From Rariglobus sp. (GTDB lineage Bacteria > Verrucomicrobiota > Verrucomicrobiia > Opitutales > Opitutaceae): 51,993 nucleotides of DNA. Position numbers and translations under genes: made by a program. Positions 6,870 to 35,680 of this stretch are shown here, one piece after another. Below the pieces are notes generated by a model. The model searched no databases, was not told the DNA's origin, and was given only the letters and a program-made list of their open reading frames with translations. The stretch covers positions 1-51,993 of the forward strand of contig JAQSWS010000020.1 of assembly GCA_029266495.1 (NCBI GenBank). Reading direction: 5' to 3'. Position 1 is the first letter of the stretch; every line of letters starts with the position of its first letter.

Positions 6870-6879
6870 TCCTTGGTTT

Positions 6880-7197: not shown

Positions 7198-7205
7198 ATT
7201 TTTTT

Positions 7206-7296: not shown

Positions 7297-7306
7297 TCCG
7301 TGGGTT

Positions 7307-7762: not shown

Positions 7763-7771
7763 TTTATTTTT

Positions 7772-7862: not shown

Positions 7863-7872
7863 TCCGTGGTTT

Positions 7873-8385: not shown

Positions 8386-8388
8386 ATT

Positions 8389-8479
8389 GCCCAACGTTCC
8401 GGGTCAGGCATGCCGAGCTAGAGGCTTTAAAAGCTGAAAAGGGAAGCGCCGAGGTGTTGGCTGTAGCCGTTGGTTAGGC
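8389..8479 (-). repeat. attC site 19 (family B, 91 bp)
   Basis: Boxes are GCCCAAC (8389-8395) and GTTAGGC (8473-8479). Confidence 0.9.
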
Positions 8480-8887: not shown

Positions 8888-8894
8888 TTCTTCT

Positions 8895-8926
8895 GCCGAA
8901 GGTTTGAGATGAGCCGCTGGTTAGGC
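8895..8926 (-). repeat. attC site 20, truncated (32 bp)
   Basis: Only the outer parts remain: GCCGAAG (8895-8901, last base changed) and GCCGCTGGTTAGGC (8913-8926). The whole centre and the inner arms are gone. It still provides the stop of cassette 21. Confidence 0.8.
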
Positions 8927-9229
8927 CGATTTTCTATTTCTTGATTCTAGCCGAATACCAAATCTTCTCACCGCATAGTAGCAGACGGACTCAAATGCGA
9001 GAGCTGCAATTACGACTCCAGACAGAGATATAATAACTCCGAAGGGAGACAGGCATGCGCCCACCAACGCGCCTAGAATGCACGCATATACGGTGATAGA
9101 TCGTCCGTGCTTCGCTATACGAAGAGGCTCCTTGCAGGAACTGCATCTTAGGTGGAATGGCGTCGGAGCCTTCGCGAACTGCCAAAACGGCATTTGCGTT
9201 TCACACTTAGGGCATGTGGGGGTTTTCAT
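8921..9229 (-). CDS. Cassette 21: zinc-ribbon membrane protein
   Basis: A 102-residue protein starting MKTPTCPKCETQMPFWQFAK. Two CxxC knuckles (CPKC at residues 6-9, CSSC at 29-32) form a zinc ribbon. Two membrane spans follow at about residues 47-62 and 64-84, then a basic tail. It is a plausible small membrane sensor or scaffold, but no specific function is known. The ATG is 10 bases from attC 21, and the TAA stop is in the truncated attC 20. Confidence 0.72.
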   Translation of the reverse strand: MKTPTCPKCETQMPFWQFAKAPTPFHLRCSSCKEPLRIAKHGRSITVYACILGALVGACLSPFGVIISLSGVVIAALAFESVCYYAVRRFGIRLESRNRKSA

Positions 9230-9239
9230 GTATATTTCT

Positions 9240-9327
9240 GCCTAACGTTCCGGGTCAGACATGCGGGCCCTGTGCAATCGAATTCATGGAGAGCTTAAAC
9301 CGCATTGTCTGTAGCCGCTTGTTAGGC
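9240..9327 (-). repeat. attC site 21 (family A, 88 bp)
   Basis: Boxes are GCCTAAC (9240-9246) and GTTAGGC (9321-9327). It provides the stop of cassette 22. Confidence 0.9.
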
Positions 9328-9711
9328 GCCTTTTGGTATTTCCGAAATGGAATTACAGGTCGTGAAATCAATCTGCATGCGCGTGACCAAATCATGGATG
9401 CTCATCGGCAGGGAATCTAAGGTAGCAGTATTTGTGTCCGCTGGGCTTTTCTTCAATAAATATGGGCCGCCATGAGGCTTCCAGTCATAAATGTAAAACG
9501 GAAGCCCTTCATCTGAGCTTAAATAATCAGAATGCGTGGCCTTATGGGACTTAGGTAAAAGCACGCTGATCGCTGATTCTTGCCTGCCGGCCGTCGCAAG
9601 TGCCACGCACGAAATTGGGCCAAAGCCCGCCGTAGAGAATACGGCCAACCGACCGCATGAATCAGCGGCAAGCCAATCGAATTCCAGTCCAACGTATTGG
9701 TCGTTTCTCAT
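9322..9711 (-). CDS. Cassette 22: hypothetical protein, 129 aa
   Basis: A soluble protein starting MRNDQYVGLEFDWLAADSCG. The opening pattern (FDWLAADSCGRLAVFSTAGF followed by GPIS) resembles small proteins of unknown role that I have seen annotated near polymorphic toxin loci, possibly immunity-like; this is a memory-based resemblance, not a match. The C-terminal half includes FYIYDWKPHGGPYLLKK. The stop codon is supplied by attC 21. Confidence 0.68.
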   Translation of the reverse strand: MRNDQYVGLEFDWLAADSCGRLAVFSTAGFGPISCVALATAGRQESAISVLLPKSHKATHSDYLSSDEGLPFYIYDWKPHGGPYLLKKSPADTNTATLDSLPMSIHDLVTRMQIDFTTCNSISEIPKGA

Positions 9712-9714
9712 TTC

Positions 9715-9805
9715 GCCTAACGTTCCGGGTCAGACATGCCGAGCCGGAGACTTTAACAGCTGGAAGGGGAAGCGCCGAGGCATTGTCTGTAGCCGCTGGT
9801 TGGGC
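9715..9805 (-). repeat. attC site 22 (family B, 91 bp)
   Basis: Boxes are GCCTAAC (9715-9721) and GTTGGGC (9799-9805). It is translated in frame by cassette 23. Confidence 0.9.
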
Positions 9806-10182
9806 TCCGTGGTCTTTTCTTTCTTGATCGTATATCCGATAAAGGTCCCGTCGTCGCGCTTGACGCTAATCATATAAATGCCGCTAAAGAGCTTCGGAAT
9901 CAGAATCTCGACTCGGCAATCGTCTTTCTGCGATTCATATGTGGTGTATTTTTCGGTTTCAGAGATGACGAAGTCGCTAAAAAGTCTGGAGTCCAAGGTT
10001 AATGCGCCGTCTGCTATCATTCCGACTTTCTTTATCTCAGGGTGAGAAGTATATTCGTGGGTGAACCTTTTCGTGCTGGATACGAATCCATGAACTGGAC
10101 CGGACATATCGGCAGGGAGGCCATTGGCGAAAGCCGCCTGCGTGAGCAAGAAGAGGAGGGCTGGTAGTAAGCAGGTTTTCAT
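9730..10182 (-). CDS. Cassette 23: secreted protein with attC-encoded tail
   Basis: A 150-residue protein starting MKTCLLPALLFLLTQAAFAN, a signal peptide with cleavage expected after A-F-A. The mature part is beta-rich (DCRVEILIPKLFSGIYMISV). No stop occurs before attC 22, so the last ~25 residues (from EPNQRLQTMPRRF) are attC-encoded, basic, and end at a stop inside the site. The function is unknown. Confidence 0.72.
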   Translation of the reverse strand: MKTCLLPALLFLLTQAAFANGLPADMSGPVHGFVSSTKRFTHEYTSHPEIKKVGMIADGALTLDSRLFSDFVISETEKYTTYESQKDDCRVEILIPKLFSGIYMISVKRDDGTFIGYTIKKEKTTEPNQRLQTMPRRFPFQLLKSPARHV

Positions 10183-10185
10183 TTT

Positions 10186-10288
10186 GCCGAACGTTCAAGA
10201 TGAGCCGCGACCGCAGCTGGCGCGGAGCGTGTTGCTCTGAGCACGATCCGTGACAGCTGTGGTCGTTGGCTCTAGCGCCTTGTTCGGC
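10186..10288 (-). repeat. attC site 23 (family C, 103 bp)
   Basis: Boxes are GCCGAAC (10186-10192) and GTTCGGC (10282-10288), with the central stem GACCGCAGCTG / CAGCTGTGGTC. Confidence 0.9.
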
Positions 10289-10298
10289 GTGTTTTTCT

Positions 10299-10697
10299 TC
10301 ATGGTAGATGCTGTTCAATCATGTCGGCAATGTGATGCATACCATTCTGTCTTAATACCTCTACGAGGACTTCCCAAGGCGGGATATTGCTGAAGTAGTC
10401 TGACGGGCCGGTATACATGCCTCCTCCCGGGCCAGTATATAGACCTCCCCCTGGCCCCGTGTAGAGCCCGCCGCCCGGTCCGGTATATAAGCCGCCACCA
10501 GGCCCGGTGTATAGTCCTCCACCGGGGCCTGTGTAAAGGCCTCCTCCGGGCCCAGTGTAGCATCCTCCGCCGGGACCGGTATACATGCCGCCGCCTGGGC
10601 CCGTGTAAGCGCCGCCACCCGGTCCTGTGTAAAGGCCGCCGCCGGGGCCAGTATAACGACCGCCGCCGGGACCTGTGTATTGATTTCTTGGCCACAT
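10299..10697 (-). CDS. Cassette 24: YTGPGGG-repeat protein
   Basis: A 132-residue protein starting MWPRNQYTGPGGG. It contains eleven full copies of the eight-residue unit x-Y-T-G-P-G-G-G and a partial twelfth, then a ~36-residue tail, DYFSNIPPWEVLVEVLRQNG and a helix. From memory, proteins with this repeat and a conserved 'NIPPW' tail are widespread in bacteria and have no established role; the repeats would be expected to form a small beta-rich or ring-like fold. It is the first cassette on the attI side, the place best expressed in a normal integron. Confidence 0.8.
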   Translation of the reverse strand: MWPRNQYTGPGGGRYTGPGGGLYTGPGGGAYTGPGGGMYTGPGGGCYTGPGGGLYTGPGGGLYTGPGGGLYTGPGGGLYTGPGGGLYTGPGGGMYTGPSDYFSNIPPWEVLVEVLRQNGMHHIADMIEQHLP

Positions 10698-10711
10698 ATT
10701 TTTTGTTTTTT

Positions 10712-10745
10712 GCCGAACAGTGTTATTAGGCTGCACTCAGTGCAG
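10712..10745 (-). promoter_or_regulatory. Array start: attI-like or remnant recombination box plus palindrome
   Basis: A single box GCCGAAC (10712-10718) lies 15 bases from the start of cassette 24, followed by ATTAGGC (10725-10731) and then the perfect inverted repeat CTGCACT-C-AGTGCAG (10731-10745). No further attC lies to the right. Read on the cassette strand this gives AACACTGTTCGGC, as expected where attI meets the first cassette, but a collapsed attC is equally possible. TGCAAA and TAATAA on the cassette strand, about 18 bases apart around the palindrome, could form a weak promoter. Confidence 0.5.
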
Positions 10746-10932
10746 CTTTGCATGGATGGAGTCTAGCGGAGGCGGAGGGAGAGTCAGGGGCAGGAAGACG
10801 GAGGGCGGTGAGCCGGACTGCCGGTAAGCCGGCGGCCGGAAGGCCGGAGGGACGGAGGACGGGGGATCGGGAGGCGGAGGGCGGACTGGCGGAGGACGGA
10901 AGGCCGGAGGGAAGGATTACCGGAGGGGGAAT

Positions 10933-10952
10933 CCCTGAACTCACGTTCAGGG
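10933..10952. repeat. Hairpin repeat CCCTGAAC-TCAC-GTTCAGGG, copy 1
   Basis: A perfect 8-bp stem with a TCAC loop. Copy 2 at 11,440-11,459 is identical including flanking bases; a third variant lies at 41,864-41,883. Confidence 0.8.
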
Positions 10953-11439
10953 CCGCGGGATCGGAGGTTTCTAGCAGCTAGGTTCTAGCAGCTAGTCGCG
11001 AGCCGGACTGCTAGACGGGCCGGCGGGCGGGTGATCGGAAATTAAGATGGCTTCGCCCCGTCACTTCCTCGGGGCGGTTCTGACGCCGGGGCTGCCGAAA
11101 GCGGGCTCGGAAGTTGTGGGCGTTGCAACCGGGGCATGGCAAGTCGCTAGTGGCTGGTTACTCGTCGCTAGTTGCTAGCTGCTAGTCACTAGTAGCTAGC
11201 CGGAGGGACGGAGGACCGGTGAGCCGGTGACCGGAATGCCGCATGGCTGGATTGTGGGTGGAGTGGACGATGTGGGAGGGGGGAGGCGTGGCGCGAGCGC
11301 CAGCCCTACAGGGGAGGAAGCCGGAGGGACGGAGAACGGAGGGACGGAGAACGGAGGGACGGAGGCAGAGGACGGAGGAGGACCTGCCCGGAGGCCGGAG
11401 GGACGGTGAGCCGGACTGTAGGACTGTCGGAGGGCGGAT

Positions 11440-22037: not shown

Positions 22038-22889
22038 TTAGTTATCTGTAAGAACGGTGTGGAGGAGGGCGGACCAGAGGCAGGCGCCGTCGGGGGTGCC
22101 TGCGGGGCCCAGTTCAAGGAGGTGGGTGCCCTCCCTGCCGACCAAGTGGAGCGGGCGTTGGCGGTGGTCATTCCGCCAGGCCAGATGGTGGACGGCGGGG
22201 AGGACGATCTGCACGGTGTGCTGGCCGTCGCTGGCGGTGAGCAGCCCGTGTTCGAAGGTGAGGTGGCGCGGGGTGAGTTCGCGACGTTGGGTCGCGGCGG
22301 GCGACGGGAGGGTGCAGGTGAAGGACGCCGCCTCCCGGGCAAACAAATCGAAGAGCGCGGGCAGGAGCGCGGGATCGTGCAACGAGATGCCGGCGGGTGG
22401 GTGGAACCGGGGGCCGGGGTAAAAAATGCCGCGAGGAGCCGGGCGCAGGGTGGCGTTGCACGGGGCGGCGAGCGGGGCCAGGCAGGCGGCCCATGCGGTG
22501 GACGAGATCTCGGGAACGGCGCACATCTGGAGGCGTTCGGCACCTGCGGCGTCGAAGACCTGGAGTTTTCCCGGCGAGGCGCAGCAGGCACACGGTTCGA
22601 GGCGGGCGTAGGCTTGGTGCCAGAGGCCGGAATGCAGGGTGAACGTGCCGTGGGTGTCGTGCGCGGATTCCCGGGTGGGAGACCAGGTGAGCGCGGGAAG
22701 GGGGCCGCTGGTCACCAGCCGGACGCAGGTGTTTCGCGTCTGGAGGACGATGCGATTGAAGGCGCCGGTCCGGGAGAGGAGGCTGAACCAGTCGCGGGAG
22801 AGCGGGATGTTGCCCGCGGCATCAGTTCGAAATCGAAAGTCGGCGGGACAAGAAATGCGCGGGGGTGGAGTGGACCGGGCGAAGTGCAT
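22038..22889 (-). CDS. HmuS/HemS-like heme-handling protein
   Basis: A 283-residue cytoplasmic protein. The part SRDWFSLLSRTGAFNRIVLQ followed by TRN resembles the HemS/HmuS opening of each repeat, and FTLHSGLWHQAYARLE with KLQVFDAAGAERLQM resembles the heme-contact and 'LQFFD..G' segments of that family. Known members bind heme for transport or anaerobic breakdown. The length is shorter than the usual ~340 residues and the match is divergent. It starts 8 bases after the stop of the Cys-rich gene upstream, under promoter B. Confidence 0.6.
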   Translation of the reverse strand: MHFARSTPPPRISCPADFRFRTDAAGNIPLSRDWFSLLSRTGAFNRIVLQTRNTCVRLVTSGPLPALTWSPTRESAHDTHGTFTLHSGLWHQAYARLEPCACCASPGKLQVFDAAGAERLQMCAVPEISSTAWAACLAPLAAPCNATLRPAPRGIFYPGPRFHPPAGISLHDPALLPALFDLFAREAASFTCTLPSPAATQRRELTPRHLTFEHGLLTASDGQHTVQIVLPAVHHLAWRNDHRQRPLHLVGREGTHLLELGPAGTPDGACLWSALLHTVLTDN

Positions 22890-22897
22890 GGGGAGGA

Positions 22898-23248
22898 TCA
22901 GGCGGCCCGCCGGCGGCGGGCACGTTGAGGGGCGGCGAAGGCTTGGGCGCCCTGGATGAGCACGCTGATGCGGACGTCCGGCAGAAAGCAGGCGAGACGG
23001 CAGCCGAGGCACCACACCGGGTGCTGGGTGGCGGCGAGTTCAGCGGGGAGGTGCAGGGTCAGCGAGGACGGCGCGGGTTTTCCCTGTCCGCCGTTCCCTG
23101 GCGGAAGGGTTTTGAAGACGAGTTTTTGTCCGACGTCGTGCGCGCAGATCACGGCGATGGCGGAAAGTGAGTCCGCGTGCGCAGGATCCCGGGCGCAAAT
23201 TTCGCACAGGAGCGGAGGGCGGATCGAAGGCGTGCGCGGTTTCGACAT
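22898..23248 (-). CDS. Cys-rich hypothetical protein, 116 aa
   Basis: It starts MSKPRTPSIRPPLLCEICAR. Cysteine groups C-E-I-C, V-I-C-A-H-D and C-L-G-C-R-L-A-C suggest a metal- or heme-binding protein, and no signal peptide is present. An ATG at 23,263 was rejected because it overlaps the predicted -10 hexamer. It is the first gene after promoter B and precedes the HmuS-like gene by 8 bases. I do not recognise the family. Confidence 0.65.
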   Translation of the reverse strand: MSKPRTPSIRPPLLCEICARDPAHADSLSAIAVICAHDVGQKLVFKTLPPGNGGQGKPAPSSLTLHLPAELAATQHPVWCLGCRLACFLPDVRISVLIQGAQAFAAPQRARRRRAA

Positions 23249-23258
23249 TGAGGCCGAG

Positions 23259-23323
23259 AGCATAGCAGCCGGGGAAGGAGGGATGCTTACCGGTCCTTGT
23301 GGAAGATTTGCGGAGTCTTGCGG
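23259..23323 (-). promoter_or_regulatory. Iron-island operator-promoter B
   Basis: Half-sites GCTTACCGGTCCTTGTGG (23,285-23,302) and ATTTGCGGAGTCTTGCGG (23,306-23,323) start 21 bases apart; then a 20-base spacer and TATGCT (23,264-23,259) as -10. The first ATG follows 11 bases later, so the leader would be very short. Confidence 0.72.
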
Positions 23324-23341: not shown

Positions 23342-24154
23342 TCAGAGGGCGGCGGGGCCGAGGAGCAACTGGTGGGGAGTGCCGTCGCCGAGATCGATCA
23401 GCCGGGCGGGAATGCGGAAGACCTCATGGATGAGCGTCGGGGCAAGAGTGGATGCGACGGGGCCGGAGGCAGCAACACGTCCGCGGGAGAGGACGACCAG
23501 GTCGTCGGCATAGGCGAGGACGAGGTTGAGGTCGTGGAGGATGGCGAGGACGGCGACGTGTTCACGGCGCGCGAGGTCACGGGCGAGGGCGAGGACGGCG
23601 TGCTGGTGTGCGAGGTCGAGGCTGGCGGTGGGTTCGTCGAGGAGGAGGGCGCGTGCGGCGGGCGGGGGTGCGGCGGGGTCGGGCTGGAGTTGGGCGAGGG
23701 CACGGGCGAGGTGGACGCGTTGTTTTTCGCCGCCGGAGAGCGTGGGGTAGAAACGATCGGCGAAAGCGGTCAGGTCCACACGGGCGAGCAAGGTGCGAGC
23801 GAGTGCATGGTCGGCGGCGGAGTCGCCTCCGCCGGAGTGGGGGATGCGGCCGAGCCGGACGACCTCTTCGACGCGAAAGGGAAAGTGGAGATCGCTTTCC
23901 TGCGGGAGCACGGCGCGGTGCCGGGCGAGTTCGGCGGCGGGCCACGCGGAGAGCGGACGATCGAGGAAGCGGACCAAGCCGCCGTCGGGCGAAAGTTCGC
24001 CGGAGAGAAGACGGAGGAGCGTGGATTTGCCGGCGCCATTGGGGCCGACAACGGCGGTGACGCGGCCGGGGGCGAGGGCGAGCGAGACGCGGTCGAGCAA
24101 CGTGTGATCGCCGCGGCGCACGACGAGATCGGTGGCGGTGAGGACGGGCTTCAT
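23342..24154 (-). CDS. hmuV: Heme ABC transporter ATP-binding protein
   Basis: A 270-residue ATPase that powers heme import across the inner membrane. Walker A GPNGAGKST lies at residues 37-45, the signature LSGGEKQ at 139-145, and Walker B LLLDEP near 170, followed by a switch His (ILHD). LHFPFRVEEVVRLGR is typical of HmuV/FecE-type ATPases. A Pro/Ala-rich stretch (PDPAAPPPAARA) sits just before Walker B. The start overlaps the stop of hmuU by one base, so the two are translationally coupled. Its stop lies 19 bases before operator B. Confidence 0.93.
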   Translation of the reverse strand: MKPVLTATDLVVRRGDHTLLDRVSLALAPGRVTAVVGPNGAGKSTLLRLLSGELSPDGGLVRFLDRPLSAWPAAELARHRAVLPQESDLHFPFRVEEVVRLGRIPHSGGGDSAADHALARTLLARVDLTAFADRFYPTLSGGEKQRVHLARALAQLQPDPAAPPPAARALLLDEPTASLDLAHQHAVLALARDLARREHVAVLAILHDLNLVLAYADDLVVLSRGRVAASGPVASTLAPTLIHEVFRIPARLIDLGDGTPHQLLLGPAAL

Positions 24155-25200
24155 CAAAACAGGCGCGAGCGGCGTCCGCGCTGAAGCAGGCTGAAGAAGA
24201 CCGGGGCGCCGAGGGCGGCGGTGATGATGCCGACGGGCAGTTCGGCCGGTGAGGCGGCGGTGCGCGCGAGCAGATCGGCGGCGAGGAGAAGCGTGGCGCC
24301 GAGCAAGGCGGAGCCCGGGACAAGCCAGCGGTGATCGGGACCGAAGCACTGGCGCACAAGATGCGGGACGACGAGTCCGATGAAACCGATGCCGCCCGCG
24401 ATGGAGACGGCGGCGCCGACGCCGGCGGCGGTGGCGAAGACGAGCGTGCGTTTGAGGCGGGCGAGATCGATGCCGAGGTGGCCGGCCTCGGCTTCGCCGA
24501 GGAGGAGGGCGTTGAGCGCGCGGGCGTGGCGCGGGATGAGGATCACGGCGGGCAGGATGAAGGGAAAGGCGGCGGCGAGGCGGGGCCACGTGACCTGGCC
24601 GAGACTGCCGAGGGTCCAGAAGGTGAACTGGCGGAGCTGGTCGTCATCGGCGAAGAAAAGCACGAGACCGGTGCCGGCCCCGGCGAGGGCGTTGATGCCG
24701 ACGCCGGCGAGCAGCATGAGGGCGACCACGACGCGGCCCTCGACCACGGCGGCCCGGTGCATGAAGATCACGGCGAAGAGGGCTCCGGCGAGGGCGAAAA
24801 TCGGAAGGGTGAGTTGTCCCAGAAAAACGGATACGCCAAGCAGGGTTGTGGCGGCGAACTTGACGTGGAGCACGGCCCCGAGGGCGGCGCCGCCGGTGAC
24901 GCCGATGAGGCCGGGGTCGGCGAGCGGATTGCGGAAGAGTCCCTGCATGCCGGCGCCGCAGAGGCCGAGGACGGAGCCGACGAGAAGCGCGCCGAGGGCG
25001 CGGGGCAGGCGGATCGAAAAGAGGATGGCGTGGTCGAGCGGCGCGAGTTGCGCGTGGCGTCCGGTGAAGCCGAGCCAGAGGGCATCGGGTGCAAGCGAGG
25101 CGGCGCCGAAGACGAGCGCGGCGGCGAAGGAGAGAACGAGCACCGCCGCCAGCGCAAGGAGCAGCGGGCGGCGAAGGTTGGGACGAAGGGGAGTGGTCAA
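24154..25200 (-). CDS. hmuU: Heme ABC transporter permease (FecCD family)
   Basis: A 348-residue inner-membrane permease with about ten spans. FecCD hallmarks include RLPRALGALLVGSVLGLCGA with GMQGLFRNPLADPGLIGVT, and GGIGFIGLVVPHLVR near residue 275. It forms the channel through which heme, delivered by HmuT, is moved by HmuV. It lies between hmuT and hmuV. The 65-base gap from hmuT holds a 15-bp hairpin. Confidence 0.93.
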   Translation of the reverse strand: MTTPLRPNLRRPLLLALAAVLVLSFAAALVFGAASLAPDALWLGFTGRHAQLAPLDHAILFSIRLPRALGALLVGSVLGLCGAGMQGLFRNPLADPGLIGVTGGAALGAVLHVKFAATTLLGVSVFLGQLTLPIFALAGALFAVIFMHRAAVVEGRVVVALMLLAGVGINALAGAGTGLVLFFADDDQLRQFTFWTLGSLGQVTWPRLAAAFPFILPAVILIPRHARALNALLLGEAEAGHLGIDLARLKRTLVFATAAGVGAAVSIAGGIGFIGLVVPHLVRQCFGPDHRWLVPGSALLGATLLLAADLLARTAASPAELPVGIITAALGAPVFFSLLQRGRRSRLF

Positions 25201-25215
25201 ACGCGGAAAACGAAC

Positions 25216-25250
25216 CGATCCAAAGTAACCTATTGGGTTACTTTGGATCG
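25216..25250. terminator. 15-bp hairpin between hmuT and hmuU
   Basis: Perfect arms CGATCCAAAGTAACC and its complement surround the loop TATTG. A shorter relative of the same hairpin lies at 43,440-43,466. It has no T-run. It may partly stop transcription or mark mRNA processing between the binding protein and the permease. Confidence 0.6.
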
Positions 25251-25265
25251 GGAGGGACGGGAGGG

Positions 25266-26138
25266 TTATTGGTTGGTGGAAGCGAGCGGGGGTGTCGCGG
25301 CCGGGTGGAGAAGGGAGGCGACCTCGGTGACGGCGTCGCCGAGGCGGGGGCCGAAGGCGAGGTGGTAGCCGAGATCGAGGGCGTGAATGCGACCGGTGCG
25401 GCCGGCGCGCGTGCCTTGAAGCCAGCCGGGGGGCTTGACGGCCTGGGGCATCATCGGATTGACCCCGTAGAGAATGACGTCGGGGTCGAGCGCGAGGAGG
25501 GCCTCGGCGTTGAGCGGTTTGTAGCCGGTGAGGCCGGTGAGCGGATTGTGTCCGCCGGCGAGCACGATGAGCGCGGTGGCGGCGGTGCCGTCGTAGGCGG
25601 CCTGGGTGGCGGTTTCGTTCATGCTCATGAGGAATACGACACGCGGAGGTCCGGCGGACGCGGTGCGACGACGGACGGCGTCGAGTTGACCTCGGAGTTT
25701 TTGCACGAGGGCGGCCGCCTCGGTTTCGCGGTGGAGGACCTCACCGAGGCGGGTGACGTTGGCGAGGAGGGTGTCGGCGGAGGGACGGGCGTCGAGGTGG
25801 ACGAAGGCGACGCCGGAGTGTTTGAGGAGCTCGACCTGCGGAGCGGGACCGGTGCCCTGGGCGGCGAGGATGAGAGTGGGGTTTTGCGCGAGCACGCCTT
25901 CGGCTCCGATCGTGCGGAAGTAGCCGACATCGGGCAGGCGGTGGACGGCGGGCGGGAAGACGCTGGAGGTGTCGCGGGCGACGACCTGATCGCCGGCGCC
26001 GAGGGCAAAGACGGTTTCGGTGATGGCGCCGCCGAGGCTGACGATGCGCTCCGGCTCCGGCGCGGCCGGAGCGGAATGACCAATGGCCAATGACCAATGA
26101 CCAATGAGGAATGCGCAGAGGATGCGGAGGGAGGGCAT
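25266..26138 (-). CDS. hmuT: Heme ABC transporter substrate-binding protein
   Basis: A 290-residue periplasmic binding protein that hands heme to HmuU. After an N-terminal signal (MPSLRILCAFLIGHWSLAIG) the mature protein begins PEPERIVSLGGAITETVFAL, typical for HmuT. The middle has DVGYFRTIGAEGVLAQNPTL and MSMNETATQAAYDGTAATAL; the tail LGYHLAFGPRLGDAV is also HmuT-like. Part of the signal peptide (LIGHWSLAIGH) is encoded by the 7-base CCAATGA repeat. The start lies 4 bases after the hugZ stop, so heme oxygenase and importer are in one unit. Confidence 0.92.
   Translation of the reverse strand: MPSLRILCAFLIGHWSLAIGHSAPAAPEPERIVSLGGAITETVFALGAGDQVVARDTSSVFPPAVHRLPDVGYFRTIGAEGVLAQNPTLILAAQGTGPAPQVELLKHSGVAFVHLDARPSADTLLANVTRLGEVLHRETEAAALVQKLRGQLDAVRRRTASAGPPRVVFLMSMNETATQAAYDGTAATALIVLAGGHNPLTGLTGYKPLNAEALLALDPDVILYGVNPMMPQAVKPPGWLQGTRAGRTGRIHALDLGYHLAFGPRLGDAVTEVASLLHPAATPPLASTNQ
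26075..26107. repeat. Heptamer repeat inside the hmuT signal peptide
   Basis: Four to five units of CCAATGA / CCAATGG encode residues 11-21 of HmuT. The unit is 7 bases, so gain or loss of one unit shifts the reading frame. Confidence 0.88.
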
Positions 26139-26142
26139 GGCG

Positions 26143-26967
26143 TCAGGCTTTTTGAGAGATGTGGGTGTGGCCGGTGTCGTTGACGTGGCGGAGGTCGGTC
26201 CAGTCGAGGGGATGGGCGTCGTAGGCCTGGCCGAAACCGGCGACGAGGCGAGCGCGGTCGGGGACGAGGCGCACGAGGTGGAAGTCGTGCATGGTTTCGA
26301 GTTGCTCCATGACGGAGCCGAATTTTTTGCGGAGGGCCTGCATGGGGGCGGTGAAGGCGTCGTCGTTGCGGGCGATGAACGTGGCGGTGCAGCGCAGCGT
26401 GAGCCGGCGGCGGGCGAGGAGATGGCTGGCGTTGGCCTCGTCCTCGATCAGGAGCGCCGAGGCATGGGCGTTGGCACGGAGGTTGGCGGTGTGATGGGAG
26501 AGGGAGCTGATGAACGTGTGGAGCGTGCCGTCGGCCGAGAGAACGAAAGGGGCGACGGAGCAATCGGGCAGTCCGTCGGCGGAGACGGTGGCGAGGAGGA
26601 CGGTCTGGGCGGTGTCGCGCAGGTGGAGGACGGCGGCACGGGCGCGTTCGGGGATGGGCTTCGGAGCGGCGTGGAGCGCGGCGGTGGCTTCCCGGGACAT
26701 GTCGATGAGGACGTGGTGGGCATCGGAGGCGCCGGTGAGCGGGGGATCGAATGGGATGCGCAACGAGGCTTCGCCGGACGGCTCGGTCACGACGAGGTCC
26801 ATGCCGTTCTGGTCGATGCCGGCGAGGGTGGCGGCGGTGGCCGAGAGACGTCCGCCGAAGTGACGGGCGTAGGCGAGGACGGAGTCGGCGTGGTCCTCGT
26901 TCATGTGGCCGAGGATGCGGGCGCGGTGCGCGGCGGGGAGGAGGTTGGTTGGGTCGGTGGTGGTCAT
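26143..26967 (-). CDS. hugZ: HugZ-type heme oxygenase
   Basis: A 274-residue cytoplasmic protein that would open the heme ring and free iron. The N-terminal ~80 residues (AHRARILGHMNEDHADSVLA) form a DUF2470 domain. From about residue 100 a pyridoxamine-oxidase-like split barrel follows (TVLLATVSADGLPDCSVAPF; ASALLIEDE). The C-terminal RLVAGFGQAYD is the conserved HugZ/HutZ heme-contact segment. The order of DUF2470 first, barrel second is found in some family members. It is directly upstream of hmuT (4-base gap) and downstream of two PEP-CTERM genes. Confidence 0.88.
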   Translation of the reverse strand: MTTTDPTNLLPAAHRARILGHMNEDHADSVLAYARHFGGRLSATAATLAGIDQNGMDLVVTEPSGEASLRIPFDPPLTGASDAHHVLIDMSREATAALHAAPKPIPERARAAVLHLRDTAQTVLLATVSADGLPDCSVAPFVLSADGTLHTFISSLSHHTANLRANAHASALLIEDEANASHLLARRRLTLRCTATFIARNDDAFTAPMQALRKKFGSVMEQLETMHDFHLVRLVPDRARLVAGFGQAYDAHPLDWTDLRHVNDTGHTHISQKA

Positions 26968-27040
26968 GGTGTTTGGAAACGGGAAGCGCGCGGCCGGTGA
27001 AACGGTCGCGCGCACGGTTGACGGTTGTGGCGGGTTTCTA

Positions 27041-27751
27041 TCAAGCGCGACGACGGCGGCGCAGGGCGGCGGCGCCGAGCGTGGCAAGGCCGGCGAAGGC
27101 CGCGAAGGAGGAGGGCTCGGGGATGGCAGAGCCGGCGAAGGTGTCGGATTGCTGGAGCTGCGCGCCGTAGGTGAGGGTGTGGGCGGCGGGGACGGTCCAG
27201 GAGACGGTGAAGTCGGTGATCGTGCCGGCGGAGACGAGGTCCCACTGGAAGGCGTAGACGTAGCGGGTGCTGGAGCCCATGCCGCCGCTTTTCACCTCGG
27301 TGAAAAGCGTGGCGGTGAAGTCGGCCATGAGGTTTTGGTTGCCGCCGTTGTAGCTGAGGACGGGGGCGACGAAGGTGCCGGAGGCCATCTCGAAATCGAG
27401 TTGGAAGACGATCGTCTCAAGGCCGGCCAGCGGCGTGGAGTCGGTGATGGTGAAGGCGCCGAGAGGAGTGGACGGCGTGTAGATGGCGTTGGTGGAGGCG
27501 CCGCCGAGGTAGCCGGAGGTGCCGGCGACCTTGTCCCACGCGGCGTCGCCCGAGCCGAAGTTGGAGGCGATGGCGGCGGGCCAGGCGGCGGTGGAGGTCG
27601 GATGCGTGCCGTAACCGGAGTAAGCGGTGCTGTTGAGGTTATACCAGCCCTCGGAGGCGGAGGTGCCGGCGAGGGAGAAGTCGGTGAATTCCTGGGCGGC
27701 GTGGGCGGCCGCGGCGAGGAGAAGGAACGGAAGGAGGAGGCGTGATTTCAT
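27041..27751 (-). CDS. PEP-CTERM surface protein
   Basis: A 236-residue exported protein. Signal peptide MKSRLLLPFLLLAAAAHA, a beta-rich body (LGAFTITDSTPLAGLETIVF), and a C-terminal sorting signal PEPSSFAAFAGLATLGAAAL followed by RRRRR. Such signals are cut by an exosortase in the inner membrane. The body is not a family I know. It shares its layout with the next gene upstream and lies between it and hugZ; a heme- or iron-binding surface role is inferred from position only. Confidence 0.88.
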   Translation of the reverse strand: MKSRLLLPFLLLAAAAHAAQEFTDFSLAGTSASEGWYNLNSTAYSGYGTHPTSTAAWPAAIASNFGSGDAAWDKVAGTSGYLGGASTNAIYTPSTPLGAFTITDSTPLAGLETIVFQLDFEMASGTFVAPVLSYNGGNQNLMADFTATLFTEVKSGGMGSSTRYVYAFQWDLVSAGTITDFTVSWTVPAAHTLTYGAQLQQSDTFAGSAIPEPSSFAAFAGLATLGAAALRRRRRA

Positions 27752-27784
27752 GGTGTGTGGTTGCAGGTGGAAATAAGGGAAGGA

Positions 27785-28489
27785 TCAGGCGGACCGGCGG
27801 CGGCGCAGGATCGCGATCACGAGGGTGCCGAGGCCGGCGAACGCGGCATAGGCGGAGGGCTCGGGCACGGCGGAGGTCTGCGTGAGGGTGACGCCGTTGA
27901 AGGCGTTGTGACTGCCGAGGCTCCAGGTGAGGGAGAGTTCGTCGGTGGAGCCGAGGCCGAGGACGCTCCAGGTGAAGCTGTAGTTGGTGAATGTCTGGTT
28001 TCCGAAGGCGGTGCTGATGGTCTCGCTGGAGCCGACGGTGACGGAGTCGGCGACGAGGGCGGAGTGGGATGCGTTGAAGTTGAGCGTGAGGCCGATGGCC
28101 TCGACGGCGGTGAGTCCGGCGGCGTAGGAGAAATCGAAGGTGACGGTGGAGAGGCCGGAGAGAATGCTGCCGGTCGAGAGGGTGAACACGGGCGCGGTGA
28201 AGAAGGTGTAATAGAACGTGCCGTAGAGGCCGCCGGTGGGGGCGAGTCCGCTGGTGGACGGACGCACGGAAGCGTGCAGGCTGGCGCCGGAGTCGGCGGA
28301 GGCGTCGGGGAAGAGCTGGTTGGTGGTGGTCCAGTCGGTTTGATAGACGTGATCCCACGCGCCGCCGGCGGTGCTCCAGCGATCGATCTGCGTGGCGGCG
28401 GAAGCGGCCGGGACGGCGGCGAGGGCGCACACGGCGAAAGCCGCGAGGCGCGTGATGAAAGAGGCGGGACGGTTATGGTGCATGGGCAT
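27785..28489 (-). CDS. PEP-CTERM surface protein
   Basis: A 234-residue exported protein. The signal peptide (ITRLAAFAVCALAAVPAASA) is followed by a beta-rich body (FTNYSFTWSVLGLGSTDELS) and the sorting signal PEPSAYAAFAGLGTLVIAIL with RRRRSA. The body resembles the neighbouring PEP-CTERM protein in order of segments (aromatic start with GAWDHVYQ, a 'TFDFSYAAG' core), suggesting an old duplication. It starts 12 bases after the pseudopilin stop, so it belongs to unit C. Confidence 0.88.
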   Translation of the reverse strand: MPMHHNRPASFITRLAAFAVCALAAVPAASAATQIDRWSTAGGAWDHVYQTDWTTTNQLFPDASADSGASLHASVRPSTSGLAPTGGLYGTFYYTFFTAPVFTLSTGSILSGLSTVTFDFSYAAGLTAVEAIGLTLNFNASHSALVADSVTVGSSETISTAFGNQTFTNYSFTWSVLGLGSTDELSLTWSLGSHNAFNGVTLTQTSAVPEPSAYAAFAGLGTLVIAILRRRRSA

Positions 28490-28501
28490 GGCGGGAAAGT
28501 G

Positions 28502-29317
28502 TCAGAGAGGGGGTCGATACGACGGATCGTTGGCGCGGCGGGCGGCGTCGGACCAAAGGCGCATGTCGCGAAGCTCGGCGCAGGTGTGGAGCCCGACATG
28601 GCTGTCGAGGTAGGCGACGACCGCGCGCCCGTTGTGACGGTAGGCGAGCCAGCCGTAGCTCATGTCCTGCGAGAGCGCGGCGGGGAGTCCGTCGAGATCG
28701 GCCGCGGGCCAGTCGGGGGCGGTCGAGGCGGTGAGGGGCGAGCTGATGCGCCAGTAACCGGATTTTTCGTTGAGCGTGCGGGAGTGGGCCGAGGCGAAGG
28801 CGATGAGGCGCGAAGGATCGGAGGCCTGGACGAGGGAGCGGACGGGGACGTCCTTGACGAGCGAGGAGGCGTCGCCGCCGACGAAGGGGCCGTTGAGTCC
28901 GAACGTGGTGCCGACGCTGAGCGTGTAGTCGTCGGCCGCGGCGGTTTCGTTGTAGTAGTCGGCCTGGGTGTTGACGTAGAGCGTGTCGCGGAAGCGGTCC
29001 CCGAGGAAAGGGCGAAGCCGGTGGGGCCAGCGGATGCCGGTGATGCCGGAGACCGTCTGGCCGCGCTCGTTGAGGGTGCCGGTGGCGCCGGCCTCCTGAA
29101 GCGGGAGGAGACGTCCGCGGTTTTCGGCGGCATAGAGGTGGTAGGCGGCCATGAGCTGGCGCGCGGCGGAGAGCTCGACGGTTTTTGATCCGTGGGCGCG
29201 GACGGCGGCGGCCGTCGGGATGAGAATGGCCGCGAGGATGCCGACGATTGCGATGACGGTGAGGAGCTCCACGAGAGTGAAGGCGGCGCGTGGCGACGGC
29301 GTGTATCGAAATTTCAT
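28502..29317 (-). CDS. Pseudopilin-like protein (prepilin N-terminus)
   Basis: A 271-residue protein starting MKFRYTPSPRAAFTLVELLT. The prepilin peptidase motif A-FTLVELL with a hydrophobic helix to about residue 38 would anchor it and allow assembly into a type II secretion-like pseudopilus. The C-terminal domain has GWLAYRHNGRAVVAYLDSHV, a feature shared with the many prepilin-like proteins of Planctomycetes and Verrucomicrobia. It is the first gene after promoter C; the PEP-CTERM and heme genes follow. No secretion motor is in the window. Confidence 0.88.
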   Translation of the reverse strand: MKFRYTPSPRAAFTLVELLTVIAIVGILAAILIPTAAAVRAHGSKTVELSAARQLMAAYHLYAAENRGRLLPLQEAGATGTLNERGQTVSGITGIRWPHRLRPFLGDRFRDTLYVNTQADYYNETAAADDYTLSVGTTFGLNGPFVGGDASSLVKDVPVRSLVQASDPSRLIAFASAHSRTLNEKSGYWRISSPLTASTAPDWPAADLDGLPAALSQDMSYGWLAYRHNGRAVVAYLDSHVGLHTCAELRDMRLWSDAARRANDPSYRPPL

Positions 29318-29328
29318 TACGATGACGG

Positions 29329-29393
29329 ATCGTAACAGCCGTGCGGCGCGAAATGCTTACCAGTCCTTGTGGTTTGTTTGCGGAGTCTTGATC
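29329..29393 (-). promoter_or_regulatory. Iron-island operator-promoter C
   Basis: Half-sites GCTTACCAGTCCTTGTGG (29,355-29,372) and GTTTGCGGAGTCTTGATC (29,376-29,393) start 21 bases apart; then a 20-base spacer and TACGAT (29,334-29,329) as -10. It faces the pseudopilin/PEP-CTERM/hugZ/hmuTUV unit; the ATG lies 12 bases after the -10. Confidence 0.72.
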
Positions 29394-29449: not shown

Positions 29450-29480
29450 AAAAAAACCGCCGGGCGACCAAGCCCGGCGG
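29450..29480 (-). terminator. Rho-independent terminator
   Basis: A perfect 9-bp stem (CCGCCGGGC / GCCCGGCGG) with a six-base loop, followed on the minus strand by seven T. It would end the PepSY mRNA and any transcript from promoter D. Confidence 0.85.
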
Positions 29481-29544
29481 CGATTGATTGACCTTTATAC
29501 ACCGTCCAAAGAACGCGGTTTGCCGGGTGGCCCGGCCAAAACAC
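29450..29544 (-). ncRNA. Candidate ~95-nt iron-island small RNA
   Basis: Promoter D on the minus strand should start transcription near 29,544, and the strong terminator ends at 29,450. No start codon with a meaningful frame lies between. The RNA would contain a 5' hairpin (GCCGGG-CCA-CCCGGC), an open AU-richer stretch (GTGTATAAAGGTCAATCAAT) and the terminator stem with seven U. An iron-linked regulatory RNA is the best reading. Alternatively the region is just the 3' end of the upstream PepSY mRNA with a vestigial promoter. Confidence 0.45.
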
Positions 29545-29550: not shown

Positions 29551-29615
29551 AGATTAACACGGACGCGGGGCGGAAAGCTTACCCGTCCTTGCGGAAAGCT
29601 TGCCCGTTGTTGCGG
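29551..29615 (-). promoter_or_regulatory. Iron-island operator-promoter D
   Basis: Half-sites GCTTACCCGTCCTTGCGG (29,577-29,594) and GCTTGCCCGTTGTTGCGG (29,598-29,615), the two most alike of all six sites, start 21 bases apart; then a 20-base spacer and TAATCT (29,556-29,551). It abuts the stop of the PepSY gene and faces no protein gene before the terminator. Confidence 0.72.
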
Positions 29616-30775: not shown

Positions 30776-33085
30776 CTAGAACCGAAGCGTGACGGAGACG
30801 CGGATGTCGCGACCGGGCTCGGGTGCGCCATGGACGGCGGCGAACCCGGGGAAGGCGGTCAGATCTTCCACGCTGCCGTGGCTGAGGTATTGTTTGTCGA
30901 AGATATTTTTGACCGTGAGATTCACCGTGAGCGCCTTGGTGAAGGCGGGGCGCCAGCGAAGAAAAACGTCGTGCGTGGTGTAGCCGGGTTTGTCGATGGT
31001 CGAGCCGGCGACGCCGGTGATGGCGAAGGGCACCTCGATATCGTCGATGCCCTGCACGAGGCGCATGTTCCAGCCGAGGTCGAGCTGGTCGACCGGCCGC
31101 CACACGAGGTCGAGCACCCAGGTGTCGCCGATGCTGGAGACGAGCGAGCTGTATTGGTAGCGGGTGGCGGTCTGGCCATCGAGCGTGGTGTCGGCGTGAT
31201 TGAACTGAAGTCCCGCCGTGACGTCGCCCAGCGTATAGGAGGCGCGGGCAAAGAAGCCTTCGGTCTCCAGTTCGCCGGCGTTGGTGTAGACGTTGGACCA
31301 GGGCAGCGTGTTGGTAATGACATCGTCAATACGGTTGATGTAGCCGCCGGTCTCGAGCTGGAGTCCGGCCTTCTGGTAAAGCGCGCGGAGTTCGTAGTTG
31401 ACCGCCTTTTCGGCTTCGAGGTCGGGATCATTGCTGGCGATGTCCACGCGGAAGGCGTCGTTGATGTCGGGTCCGCGGTAGGCGGTGGCGACGTTGGCGT
31501 TGAGGCTGAACGCCTTCGTGACCTGGTAGGCTGCGCCGAGGTTCGGGCTGAAGCCCTCGTGTTTGAAGTCCTGGTCGAGGCGGTCGTGCAGACGATAGGT
31601 GTCGAAGCGCGTGCCGGCGTTGACGGTGAGGCGGTCGGTGACGGCGAACGCGTTCTGGGTGAAGAGGCCGGTGACGCTGCCGTCCTCGCCGTAGGTCTGG
31701 GGGGCGGAGGACGGGCCGGCGTTCACTTCATCGCGGCGGTGATCGATGCCATAAACCAGGGTGTGTGCACCGATGCGCTGGGTGTTGCGCAGGTCGAATT
31801 GCAGGCCCTCGATCGTGCCGCGGTAGGGGCCGAAGACGCCGACCTGCAGGAGGTCGGCCTCGGTGTAGCTCGCGGTGAATTGGAGATCGAGCCACTCCAT
31901 CGTCTCAGGGCGGATACCGTAGCCGAAGGTGCCGGTGTTGCGTTCGACCTCCATGTAGAAGGACGGGTTGGCCGGGCCGGGCGCCCATTCGGGGCGGCGG
32001 AGCTTGTTGCCCTCTTCCTGGAGGTTTTCGTAGCTGAAGCGGACGGTCTGGCCGTTTTTGAAACTGCCGACGACTTTGCCGAAGGCGACTTGCTGCTGAC
32101 TGTCGGAGCCGTCGAGCGAGTTGCCCTCGCCGTCTTCGATTTCGCCGTAATCGGCGTAAACGAGGCTGAGGAGGCCGCTCCATGTGTCGTTGGCACGACC
32201 GAAGCCGGTGACGCTGGTCTTGCTGCCGTCGGTGTTGCTGAAATAGCTCTGCTTGACGAGCGCGCCCCCGGATTCGCCGGGACGCAGCAGATCGGCAGGA
32301 TCCTTGGTGACGAAGCGGATGGCGCCGCCGAGCGCGCCCGGGCCGTCGGCGGCATTGCCGGTGCCGGGCTGGATTTCGACCTGCTGGAGCAACTCGGGTT
32401 CGAGGGTGTTGCGGCCGATGTGGTGGAAGAGCGAACCGGACTGGGTGGCGCCGTCGACGGAGACATTGATGAGGCCTTCGCCGAGGTTGCGGACGTAGAT
32501 TTTCTGGGCGACCGCGGTGGAGCCGCCGACGGTGACGGCGGGGTCGATGGAGAGGGTGTCCTCCAGATCATTGGCCTGGCGCAGGTCGAGGTCGGTGCGG
32601 GTGACGACCAGCACGCGCTGGGCGCCTTCGCTGGTCACGAGAAGCGGCTCCAGCACGGTGATCTCGTTGGATGCAGGCGCGGGAGCGGTGTCAGTGGAGT
32701 GTGCCGCCGGAGGCGGCGAACCGGTCCCGACGATGGAGACGTTGCGGGCGCCGCTGGTGCGGTGCGTGAGGCCGCTGCCGGCGAGCAGGTGATCGAGGGC
32801 GGCGGAGGCGGTGTAGTCACCCTGCAGGGCGGGAGCGGTCTTGCCGGCCAGCAACTCGGAGCGTGCGGCGGCGCTGATGCCGGTGACGGCGGAGAATGTG
32901 TCCAGCGCGTCGGCCAGGGGTTGCGCGGACTGTGCGAACCGGTGGACGGCGGTCGCGGCGGGCGCGGAGGCCGGAGGGGTGCTGTCGGCGTGGGCGGCGG
33001 CCGGCAGCGCGAGGCAGAGAAGGCAGGCGAGCGCGGCATGACGCGCGGGTTGCCGGCGGGAGCGGAAGGAGGACTGGGTTTGCAT
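30776..33085 (-). CDS. TonB-dependent receptor with STN signalling domain (FecA-type)
   Basis: A 769-residue outer-membrane receptor. After the signal peptide (residues 1-34), an STN domain covers ~45-120 (RFAQSAQPLADALDTFSAVT), the part that contacts FecR. Then come the plug (ITVLEPLLVTSEGAQRVLVV; NPRF-free 'KIYVRNLGEGLINVSVDG') and the barrel, ending DIRVSVTLRF. The sigma factor and FecR genes lie directly upstream, making a complete cell-surface signalling unit: ligand binding would release the ECF sigma factor. The ligand is probably a ferric chelate. Confidence 0.93.
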   Translation of the reverse strand: MQTQSSFRSRRQPARHAALACLLCLALPAAAHADSTPPASAPAATAVHRFAQSAQPLADALDTFSAVTGISAAARSELLAGKTAPALQGDYTASAALDHLLAGSGLTHRTSGARNVSIVGTGSPPPAAHSTDTAPAPASNEITVLEPLLVTSEGAQRVLVVTRTDLDLRQANDLEDTLSIDPAVTVGGSTAVAQKIYVRNLGEGLINVSVDGATQSGSLFHHIGRNTLEPELLQQVEIQPGTGNAADGPGALGGAIRFVTKDPADLLRPGESGGALVKQSYFSNTDGSKTSVTGFGRANDTWSGLLSLVYADYGEIEDGEGNSLDGSDSQQQVAFGKVVGSFKNGQTVRFSYENLQEEGNKLRRPEWAPGPANPSFYMEVERNTGTFGYGIRPETMEWLDLQFTASYTEADLLQVGVFGPYRGTIEGLQFDLRNTQRIGAHTLVYGIDHRRDEVNAGPSSAPQTYGEDGSVTGLFTQNAFAVTDRLTVNAGTRFDTYRLHDRLDQDFKHEGFSPNLGAAYQVTKAFSLNANVATAYRGPDINDAFRVDIASNDPDLEAEKAVNYELRALYQKAGLQLETGGYINRIDDVITNTLPWSNVYTNAGELETEGFFARASYTLGDVTAGLQFNHADTTLDGQTATRYQYSSLVSSIGDTWVLDLVWRPVDQLDLGWNMRLVQGIDDIEVPFAITGVAGSTIDKPGYTTHDVFLRWRPAFTKALTVNLTVKNIFDKQYLSHGSVEDLTAFPGFAAVHGAPEPGRDIRVSVTLRF

Positions 33086-33175
33086 GGAGGAAAACGAACG
33101 GCGAACGGGCCGTCTCGTCTTTGCTGACGCTGGGGGCGCGCGATACCTCCATGCCACGCGCACATTTTTTTTAGA

Positions 33176-34790: not shown

Positions 34791-34856
34791 AGCATAGCAG
34801 GCGGGGCGGGGAGAAATGCTTACCGGTCCTTGTGGAAAGCTTACCCGTTGTTGCGC
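34791..34856 (-). promoter_or_regulatory. Iron-island operator-promoter E
   Basis: Half-sites GCTTACCGGTCCTTGTGG (34,818-34,835) and GCTTACCCGTTGTTGCGC (34,839-34,856) start 21 bases apart; then a 21-base spacer and TATGCT (34,796-34,791). It overlaps the 3' end of the AraC-type gene and drives the sigma factor, FecR, receptor and PepSY genes. Confidence 0.75.
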
Positions 34857-35680
34857 GGGATCAGGGCGCTGGGGGGGCGGCCGTGGTGTTCGGAGAATGC
34901 GCGGCTGAACTGGCCGAGGCTTTGGTAGCCGGCGGCGAGGGCGGCTTCGGTGACGTTGGCCTGGCCCGAGCGGAGCAGGGCGGCGGCGTGGTCGAGGCGG
35001 AGGCGGCGCAGGTGGATGGTCGGGCCGTGGCCGAATTCGGCGGTGAAGAGGCGGCTCAGGTGCGAGGGGCTGCTGTGCACGGCGGCGGCCATTTCGGGCA
35101 GGCCGATGGGTTCGGCGAGGTGGGCGGTCATGTAGTCGATGACGGCGCGGAGGGCGGGGTGGAGGACCCGGGACTGGGCTTGGGCGGGAGCGGGGTCGGC
35201 CGGCGGCGGCAGGAGAAGGGTGAGGAGCTCAATGAGTTTGCCGGTGCCCCAGATGTTGCGCAGGGCGGGGGCGACGGGGCAGCCGCGCAGGCCGAGGAGG
35301 AGCGTCTGCATCGAAGGGGTGAGCGGGGCGGGTCCATGGGCGGGGGTGCGCGAAGGGGCGGGCAGCAGCGGGTGGATCGCGACGGGCAGGGCGGTGGCGG
35401 TGAAACGCCAGACGAGGAGGTCGGAGGGGCGCGTCGTCGCGGGACGGAGGTTGGTGGCGGCGGTGGGCGTGAGCCAGACGAAGTGCTGGGCTTCGAGGTG
35501 CCAGGCGAGTTCGGCGTGGAAGCAGGCGATGCAGCCCTGGAGGCAGAAGAGCAGCAGGTGGCCGGGCGTCGGGGACGTGGAATGAGGCAGCACGAGACCG
35601 TCCGCGGGGAGGCGGAGTTCGGCGAGGTGCTGGGGCGAGGCGACTTCACCGGAGAGCGTGCGTGCATCCGGCGGGAGCAT
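34841..35680 (-). CDS. AraC-family regulator (PchR-like)
   Basis: A 279-residue activator. The C-terminal ~100 residues carry two helix-turn-helix units: IGLPEMAAAVHSSPSHLSRL followed by FGHGPTIHLRRLRLDHAAAL, and NVTEAALAAGYQSLGQFSRA with the closing F-x-x-x-x-G-x-x-P pattern (FSEHHGRPPSAL). The N-terminal ~150 residues (GHLLLFCLQGCIACFHAELA) would bind an effector, as PchR/YbtA proteins bind a ferric siderophore. It is last in the receptor-PepSY-AraC unit and is the natural candidate to read the six 21-bp repeat operators. Confidence 0.9.
   Translation of the reverse strand: MLPPDARTLSGEVASPQHLAELRLPADGLVLPHSTSPTPGHLLLFCLQGCIACFHAELAWHLEAQHFVWLTPTAATNLRPATTRPSDLLVWRFTATALPVAIHPLLPAPSRTPAHGPAPLTPSMQTLLLGLRGCPVAPALRNIWGTGKLIELLTLLLPPPADPAPAQAQSRVLHPALRAVIDYMTAHLAEPIGLPEMAAAVHSSPSHLSRLFTAEFGHGPTIHLRRLRLDHAAALLRSGQANVTEAALAAGYQSLGQFSRAFSEHHGRPPSALIPRNNG

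Follow-up and report, generated by a model that had tools for sequence, protein, structure and literature searches.

A heme-acquisition operon of Rariglobus whose outer genes may form a new surface capture module of PEP-CTERM proteins and a pseudopilin

The window, the whole stretch of DNA analysed here (51,993 nucleotides of contig JAQSWS010000020.1 from Rariglobus sp., family Opitutaceae, phylum Verrucomicrobiota), contains a seven-gene unit in which a pseudopilin and two PEP-CTERM proteins are encoded ahead of genes for heme import and breakdown. The genes, all seven of them encoded by the minus strand, span 23342-29317 and read psp-PEP2-PEP1-HugZ-HmuT-HmuU-HmuV, the order and place given by an initial annotation of the window. 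The features of the unit are as follows:

28502..29317, minus strand: psp, pseudopilin of 271 amino acids, first gene of the unit (PF07963; AF2 model; pilin-like structural match)
27785..28489, minus strand: PEP2, PEP-CTERM protein of 234 amino acids (TIGR02595; 37% identical to PEP1; PEP1-family profile E 3e-22)
27041..27751, minus strand: PEP1, PEP-CTERM protein of 236 amino acids, of a family that follows heme loci (TIGR02595; family alignment; AF2 model)
26143..26970, minus strand: HugZ-type heme oxygenase (DUF2470 and PNPOx; TIGR04109 below cut-off; solved relatives 3gas and 3tgv)
25266..26138, minus strand: HmuT, periplasmic heme-binding protein (PF01497; solved heme-binding relatives, E 1e-37)
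25215..25251, minus strand: 16-pair hairpin with a weak T-tail, between hmuT and hmuU
24154..25200, minus strand: HmuU, permease, whose true start may lie further in, for example at 25143 (PF01032, E 6e-83)
23342..24157, minus strand: HmuV, heme ABC ATPase (NF010068, 307.2 bits, cut-off 261)

The gaps between these genes are as small as had been claimed: 12 nucleotides between psp and PEP2, 33 between PEP2 and PEP1, 70 between PEP1 and HugZ and 4 between HugZ and HmuT, followed by 65 between HmuT and HmuU (with the longest HmuU start) and, from the coordinates, an overlap of 4 between HmuU and HmuV. Profile searches bear out most of the names that the genes had been given. The prepilin signal of psp scores 27.5 bits with PF07963 (cut-off 21.2), and the two PEP-CTERM proteins clear the cut-off of 16 for NCBIfam TIGR02595 with 20.4 and 19.7 bits, with the window’s PEP1 slightly below the Pfam PF07589 cut-off (18.6 versus 20.7); the two are indeed related, sharing 37% identity over 141 amino acids (E 4e-21). 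HmuV clears the model for heme ABC ATPases, and the solved proteins closest to HmuT bind heme (E 1e-37 to 8e-31), with B12 proteins at 4e-13 or weaker. HmuU matches the FecCD family, its top NCBIfam model being BtuC, below cut-off. For HugZ the name holds in part: the DUF2470/PNPOx architecture and the match to solved heme oxygenase/HutZ chains agree with it, but the NCBI equivalog model TIGR04109 gives 154.7 bits where 240 are required (E 3e-45), and because this cut-off is missed we call the gene HugZ-type.

To the inner part of the unit, then, we can assign known functions; the surface genes (psp, PEP1 and PEP2) are best approached through the company they keep. HugZ matches were found in 32 of 150 genomes of the family. 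When 29 of these loci (L010-L038) were viewed with 1.5 kb flanks, a view that more distant hmu genes would escape, hmu genes stood beside HugZ only in the window’s own genome and in four others (G041, G042, G053 and G005), and surface genes were present at all five. Their arrangement varies: hugZ-hmuTUV-araC-psp-PEP1-PEP in G041, araC-PEP-psp-PEP-hugZ-hmuTUV in G042, hugZ-hmuT-psp-PEP1-PEP-hugZ-hmuTUV in G053 and araC-psp-PEP1-PEP1-hugZ-hmuTUV in G005. A metagenome-assembled genome of the family (L130) has the order araC-psp-PEP2-PEP1-hugZ-hmuT-hmuU.

Outside the family the surface genes accompany other versions of the heme set. Loci of family f20 read hmuVUT / hmuS / PEP1 / longer beta protein / psp, with HmuS assigned by Pfam. 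At four further loci (L151, L174, L175 and L183) a single gene separates psp from hmuT, and that of L151, the one tested, is a PF01126 heme oxygenase. In f11 (L245, L247 and L248) there is PEP1 but no psp, and the genes read PEP1-PEP-TonB receptor-hmuTUV-hugZ (in L248 the frame of the receptor is split in two); in f21 (L242 and L246) we find hmuTUV-hugZ-PEP1 with genes that by eye resemble ExbB/ExbD, and a TonB receptor in L246; and in f47 (L260, L261 and L262) the order is PEP1-PEP-TonB receptor-hmuS-hmuTUV, with a small gene ahead of hmuS in two of the three. Thus three unrelated degrading enzymes, HugZ, HmuS and the classical heme oxygenase of PF01126, accompany the surface genes, which stay constant while the degrading enzyme varies. 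In f45/f48, psp and a protein with a DRWMYP motif adjoin hmuTUV-hmuS in six of seven loci.

This last protein belongs to a DRWMYP(F/S)-type family seen at 25 loci (including L145:1675-2697, L137:8370-9995 and L172:8518-9645), with no Pfam match in the members tested. It partners psp in Planctomycetota, often divergently, and in some Verrucomicrobiota heme loci. The divergent Planctomycetota neighbour of psp had been guessed from its length to be a LacI regulator; this was rejected, as the proteins tested have no Pfam match and the 25 loci have the DRWMYP-type protein instead.

Conserved co-occurrence with the heme genes had been proposed as a check on the unit, and in many relatives the surface genes do show linkage to genes for heme import, while within the order they track HmuT. 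A heme-type HmuT is present in 32 of the order’s 372 genomes (top matches E 4e-59 or better). PEP1 (E 1e-15) occurs in 20 genomes and full-length psp (E 1e-45) in 18, and every one of them is among the 32 with HmuT; the hypergeometric probabilities, uncorrected for descent, are 4e-25 for PEP1 and 2e-22 for psp. The psp threshold was set post hoc in the gap between matches at 1.7e-46 and 3.9e-24; at E 1e-12, psp is matched in up to 147 of the 372 genomes, mostly through the shared N-terminal helix. These genome searches score the best first-look candidates only, 6-9 per genome of up to 188, so that absences are not firm. Across 298 genomes of the phylum, PEP1 occurs in 23, HmuT (E 1e-35) in 24 and both in 15 (hypergeometric 7e-14). 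A strict tie of PEP1 to HmuT therefore holds in the order (20/20) and fails in the phylum (15/23).

Viewed from HmuT, PEP1 and/or psp lies within 10 kb at 29 of 46 loci (20/32 in the order, 9/14 in the rest of the phylum), and the module is near HmuT at 28 of the 38 loci with a heme-degrading enzyme versus 1 of the 8 without (Fisher 0.002, shared descent ignored). This count takes one HmuT locus per genome and runs profiles on stop-to-stop frames; flanks are short in G378 (1.2/2.0 kb) and on one side of G413 (1.7 kb), weak PEP-CTERM genes close to hmuT are left out for G371 and G377, and its TonB blast, with the window’s four receptors as queries, overlooks receptors detectable by Pfam/NCBIfam. 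Viewed from psp, hmu genes are present at 18 of 80 loci in named genomes, none of these 18 being in a Planctomycetota record; the 80 are the best of 104 relatives found with a single peptide pattern, and weak HmuV matches (~25-33%), being generic ABC ATPases, are excluded from the count. The P-values disregard shared descent, the exception among these counts being a tree of 98 psp proteins (built by a quick method), 29 with HmuU nearby. On it, heme linkage is clustered and changes 11 times versus 25 in shuffles; six of the 11 changes are forced by well-supported branches, so that heme linkage recurs in separate parts of the psp family. (L154, at a contig end with the end of HmuV and HmuS, is within the 18 of 80, yet ‘other’ in the tree, where HmuU was required.) The association of the surface module with heme acquisition, across several families, is strong and close to certain.

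Receptor genes near PEP1 point in the same direction. In all five TonB receptors tested from positions beside PEP1 or within 3 kb of it, the top NCBIfam model is TIGR01786 (heme/hemoglobin), and three of them (L245, L265 and L268) pass its cut-off. L265 and L268 come from genomes without an HmuT match; PEP1 is accompanied there by DUF6607 as well as the receptor. The receptor closest to the window’s PEP1 belongs to the adjacent unit upstream and falls below the heme-model cut-off. By analogy, the placement of PEP1 beside a heme-type receptor resembles the gene context of HmuY in Bacteroidota. The three surface proteins are probably not equivalent, with PEP1 near heme-type TonB receptors and psp optional.

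We note DUF6607 as an observation in its own right. It lies near PEP1 in L265, L266, L267, L268, L182 and L191, with a TonB receptor in three. In five of the eight HmuT-less PEP1 genomes of the phylum (one locus each; not G602, G637 and G669), DUF6607 is near PEP1 in L265, L266, L267 and L268, and a TonB receptor in L265, L266 and L268; L269 has neither. DUF6607 may be another unrecognised heme-uptake component.

In an alignment of 21 PEP1-family rows, Gly29, Trp36, Tyr91, Gln117, Gly137, Gln169, Asp171 and His191 are invariant together with the PEP motif; Tyr91 and His191 are thus kept in 21/21. A histidine 17-34 residues before the PEP motif is present in nearly all PEP1-family proteins (47 of 50) and in far fewer of the weak relatives (7 of 45) and of the other PEP-CTERM proteins (7 of 23). 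PEP1 rows match several NCBIfam PEP-CTERM models weakly, the matched ranges in the window’s PEP1 and PEP2 being mainly C-terminal, and the window’s genome has four exosortases over cut-off. The AF2 model of PEP1 (pLDDT 87.5, pTM 0.81) is a jelly roll. A known heme-binding fold was considered for it and not found: no hemophore is among the Foldseek or VIA-align 2 matches listed, a result that neither proves nor excludes heme binding. Paralogues of psp paired with a PEP1-type gene, in most cases divergently oriented and with no hmu genes, occur at L114, L118, L119, L120, L123, L124 and L125.

The AF2 model of psp (pLDDT 91.1) is pilin-like, with an N-terminal helix at 15-65, and its top structural match is a type IV pilin, Thermus PilA4 (Z 5.3, root-mean-square deviation 3.0 over 118). 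A prepilin signal is present in 39 of 39 psp-family rows, and the window’s genome has one prepilin peptidase over cut-off. In Pfam and NCBIfam, psp matches pilin signal-type models only; its large C-terminal domain with an LRDMRxW motif is outside their coverage. The histidine of its DG(H/S)V motif was rejected as a heme ligand, since it is a serine in many rows. To our knowledge, pseudopilins of this kind are largely unexplained.

Taking these observations together, we favour, with somewhat more confidence than doubt, the reading that the operon serves heme acquisition and that its outer genes encode a new surface capture module. PEP1 and its relative PEP2 would be exported, processed by an exosortase and kept at the cell surface, where they would bind heme or a hemoprotein and pass the cargo to a TonB-dependent receptor, as HmuY does for HmuR in Bacteroidota. 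HmuTUV would then import the heme, which HugZ would open for its iron, a task of HmuS or a classical heme oxygenase at other loci. The psp protein would be an optional helper, most likely built by a type IV pilus or type II secretion-like machinery, that extrudes or presents the PEP-CTERM proteins. The importer and the degrading enzymes are already known, whereas the surface module would be new. Gene order, conserved linkage, the tracking of HmuT within the order, the operator motif in two relatives and the exosortase and prepilin peptidase genes are observed; we infer the surface location, the binding of heme or hemoprotein, the transfer to the receptor and the role of psp. Judged from sequence, the most economical function, and our best inference, is surface heme capture by PEP1 with delivery to a TonB receptor. 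A narrower version, which we put forward tentatively and hold to be rather unlikely as it stands, is that Verrucomicrobiota possess unrecognised exosortase-sorted hemophores, in which the jelly roll of PEP1, similar to that in carbohydrate-binding modules, binds heme by way of the invariant His191 and Tyr91, and a dedicated psp pseudopilus extrudes or moves these proteins to feed TonB receptors. If true, this would give PEP-CTERM proteins and this pseudopilin family a function in nutrient uptake.

Several observations weigh against surface heme capture. The fold of PEP1 is a common one, its top VIA-align 2 match being a phage baseplate protein (Z 9.8, root-mean-square deviation 3.3 over 142). 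Against Pfam the 21 PEP1 rows match the sorting motif alone (12/21) and no curated heme-binding family, and the PEP1 profile finds no solved chain at E 1. The histidine ahead of the PEP motif is retained in PEP1 paralogues that have no hmu genes nearby (L114, L118, L120 and others), and because it is kept there it is possibly structural. Linkage is also incomplete: 17 of the 46 HmuT loci, some on cut contigs, lack the module, eight of the 23 PEP1 genomes of the phylum have no HmuT match, and 62 of the 80 psp loci have no hmu genes, psp being found in this setting also in G005 and G254 (L073 and L107). No TonB receptor was found within 10 kb at any of ten f20 loci by blast with the window’s four receptors, and hand-over there would therefore be in trans. 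Finally, hmuUV could be partly uncoupled from the rest, as the 16-pair hairpin ahead of hmuU may divide the operon in two.

The main alternative is a module for attachment or matrix formation under iron regulation: psp and the PEP-CTERM proteins would, for example, hold cells to heme-rich or polysaccharide particles, would be needed in the conditions that call for heme import and be co-expressed with the heme genes, and would not handle heme themselves. The jelly roll of PEP1 resembles carbohydrate-binding modules: these and Eph ligand-binding domains follow in its VIA-align 2 matches (Z up to 8.9), and Foldseek returns mainly a mannan-binding module and Eph ligand-binding domains (TM ~0.3). 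PEP-CTERM sorting is linked to exopolysaccharide production in a passage of PMC11072679, psp is partnered with another surface protein in Planctomycetota, and there are the PEP1-psp pairs away from hmu genes. Against it stand the tracking of loci with a heme-degrading enzyme (28/38 versus 1/8) and the closeness of PEP1 to heme-type TonB receptors, and we regard this alternative as a serious one with roughly one chance in four in its favour. It is improbable that the surface proteins sequester heme against its toxicity and not for feeding; PEP1-psp pairs at L114 and L120 lie near genes that by eye resemble thioredoxin reductase and peroxiredoxin, which fits a stress role, but in the window and its relatives the proteins share an operon with an importer, which brings heme in. 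That psp and the PEP genes are hitch-hikers with no functional link to heme is very improbable, since, abundant as such gene types are (62 psp and 120 PEP1 first-look candidates in the window’s genome), the linkage recurs across several families despite varying gene order and degrading enzyme.

Comparison with known systems helps to place the proposed capture module. The inner part of the unit is of the same kind as known HmuTUV systems with HugZ, HmuS or heme oxygenase; unlike those in the papers we found, it has PEP-CTERM proteins and a pseudopilin alongside. HmuY-type surface proteins carry a lipid anchor. In the HmuY/HmuR-type uptake of Bacteroidota (PMC8911585 and PMC12106395), too, the gene for a surface protein stands together with that for a heme-type TonB receptor and with further heme genes, and the likeness is seen here in the order PEP1-PEP-TonB receptor-HmuTUV-HugZ of L245 and L247. 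PEP1 differs in that its Pfam match is limited to the sorting motif, that it would be anchored by the PEP-CTERM/exosortase route and that psp is often added. Like the pseudopilins of type II secretion and type IV pilins, psp has a prepilin signal, a long N-terminal helix and a weak structural match; unlike them, it has the large LRDMRxW C-terminal domain and is found in a heme operon instead of a secretion operon. PEP1 and PEP2 share with PEP-CTERM/exosortase proteins the C-terminal sorting signal and the exosortases in the genome; unlike other PEP-CTERM proteins, the PEP1 family follows nutrient-import genes.

Among the papers listed by a literature search, with subscription journals mostly outside it, we saw none linking PEP-CTERM proteins with heme capture, and there is no such link in the portions seen of PMC2907700, PMC11072679 and PMC4960237. 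PEP-CTERM proteins are numerous, with 23 predicted in Akkermansia muciniphila according to PMC4960237, which regards the system as little characterised. That PEP-CTERM and pseudopilin families follow heme-import genes so tightly makes their function directly testable. In many Verrucomicrobiota the PEP1 family and psp are good candidates for surface heme-capture proteins of a new kind; if this is true, surface heme capture extends to a phylum and a sorting system in which it would be new.

The unit had also been placed under a repeated operator, and a tandem copy does lie 38 bp upstream of psp. The regulatory features and the nearest receptor are:

29355..29393, minus strand: tandem operator before psp, two half-sites ~21 bp apart
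29456..29481, minus strand: terminator-like hairpin with T-tail, 5′ of the unit, parting it from the preceding genes (consensus match only)
29577..29615, minus strand: second tandem operator, ~260 bp upstream of psp
30776..33163, minus strand: TonB-dependent receptor in the next unit upstream, heme receptor as top model (TIGR01785, 245.5 bits, cut-off 316.85 missed)
34841..35680, minus strand: AraC-family regulator, candidate for the tandem operator (PF12833)

The operator motif, GCTTACCNGTCCTTGNGG, has six sites in the window at up to 2 mismatches and eight at up to 3; because 0.29 would be expected, the operator is more than chance. Reading from the sequence, a looser second half-site follows ~21 bp further on at all six sites; a repeat tool recovers it at three. 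In a scan of the whole genome, all matches with up to 2 mismatches are confined to this contig. The six tandem operators, at window positions 18905, 21960, 23285, 29355, 29577 and 34818, lie shortly upstream of a siderophore-type TonB receptor, a flavodoxin, orfY, the psp unit (two copies) and an ECF sigma gene. The AraC-family regulator at 34841-35680 is their likely binder, and AraC genes also adjoin the unit in G041, G042, G005 and L130. Among five relatives checked, the operator precedes the operon in two: in L130 with 2 mismatches, 33-50 bp ahead of the assigned psp start, and in G042 with 3 mismatches, 36 bp ahead of the first gene, both matches being scored without a shuffle control. 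No motif at up to 4 mismatches adjoins psp in G041, G005 or Geminisphaera (L133).

Around the unit lies an iron island with four TonB receptors, an ECF sigma factor with FecR, three PepSY proteins, a flavodoxin and the AraC-family regulator; the three receptors other than that at 30776..33163 pass the siderophore model. We conclude that the island serves iron in general and the psp-hmuV unit heme. Two further genes, orfX (window 22038-22940; no Pfam or NCBIfam match) and orfY (22898-23263; no NCBIfam match), have counterparts near psp and PEP1 in G041 (32% and 56% identity; L069 18177-19415); both are possible additional heme or iron proteins. At the left end of the window, at 1500-11000, small minus-strand frames run in series, unlike the iron island, and could be a prophage.

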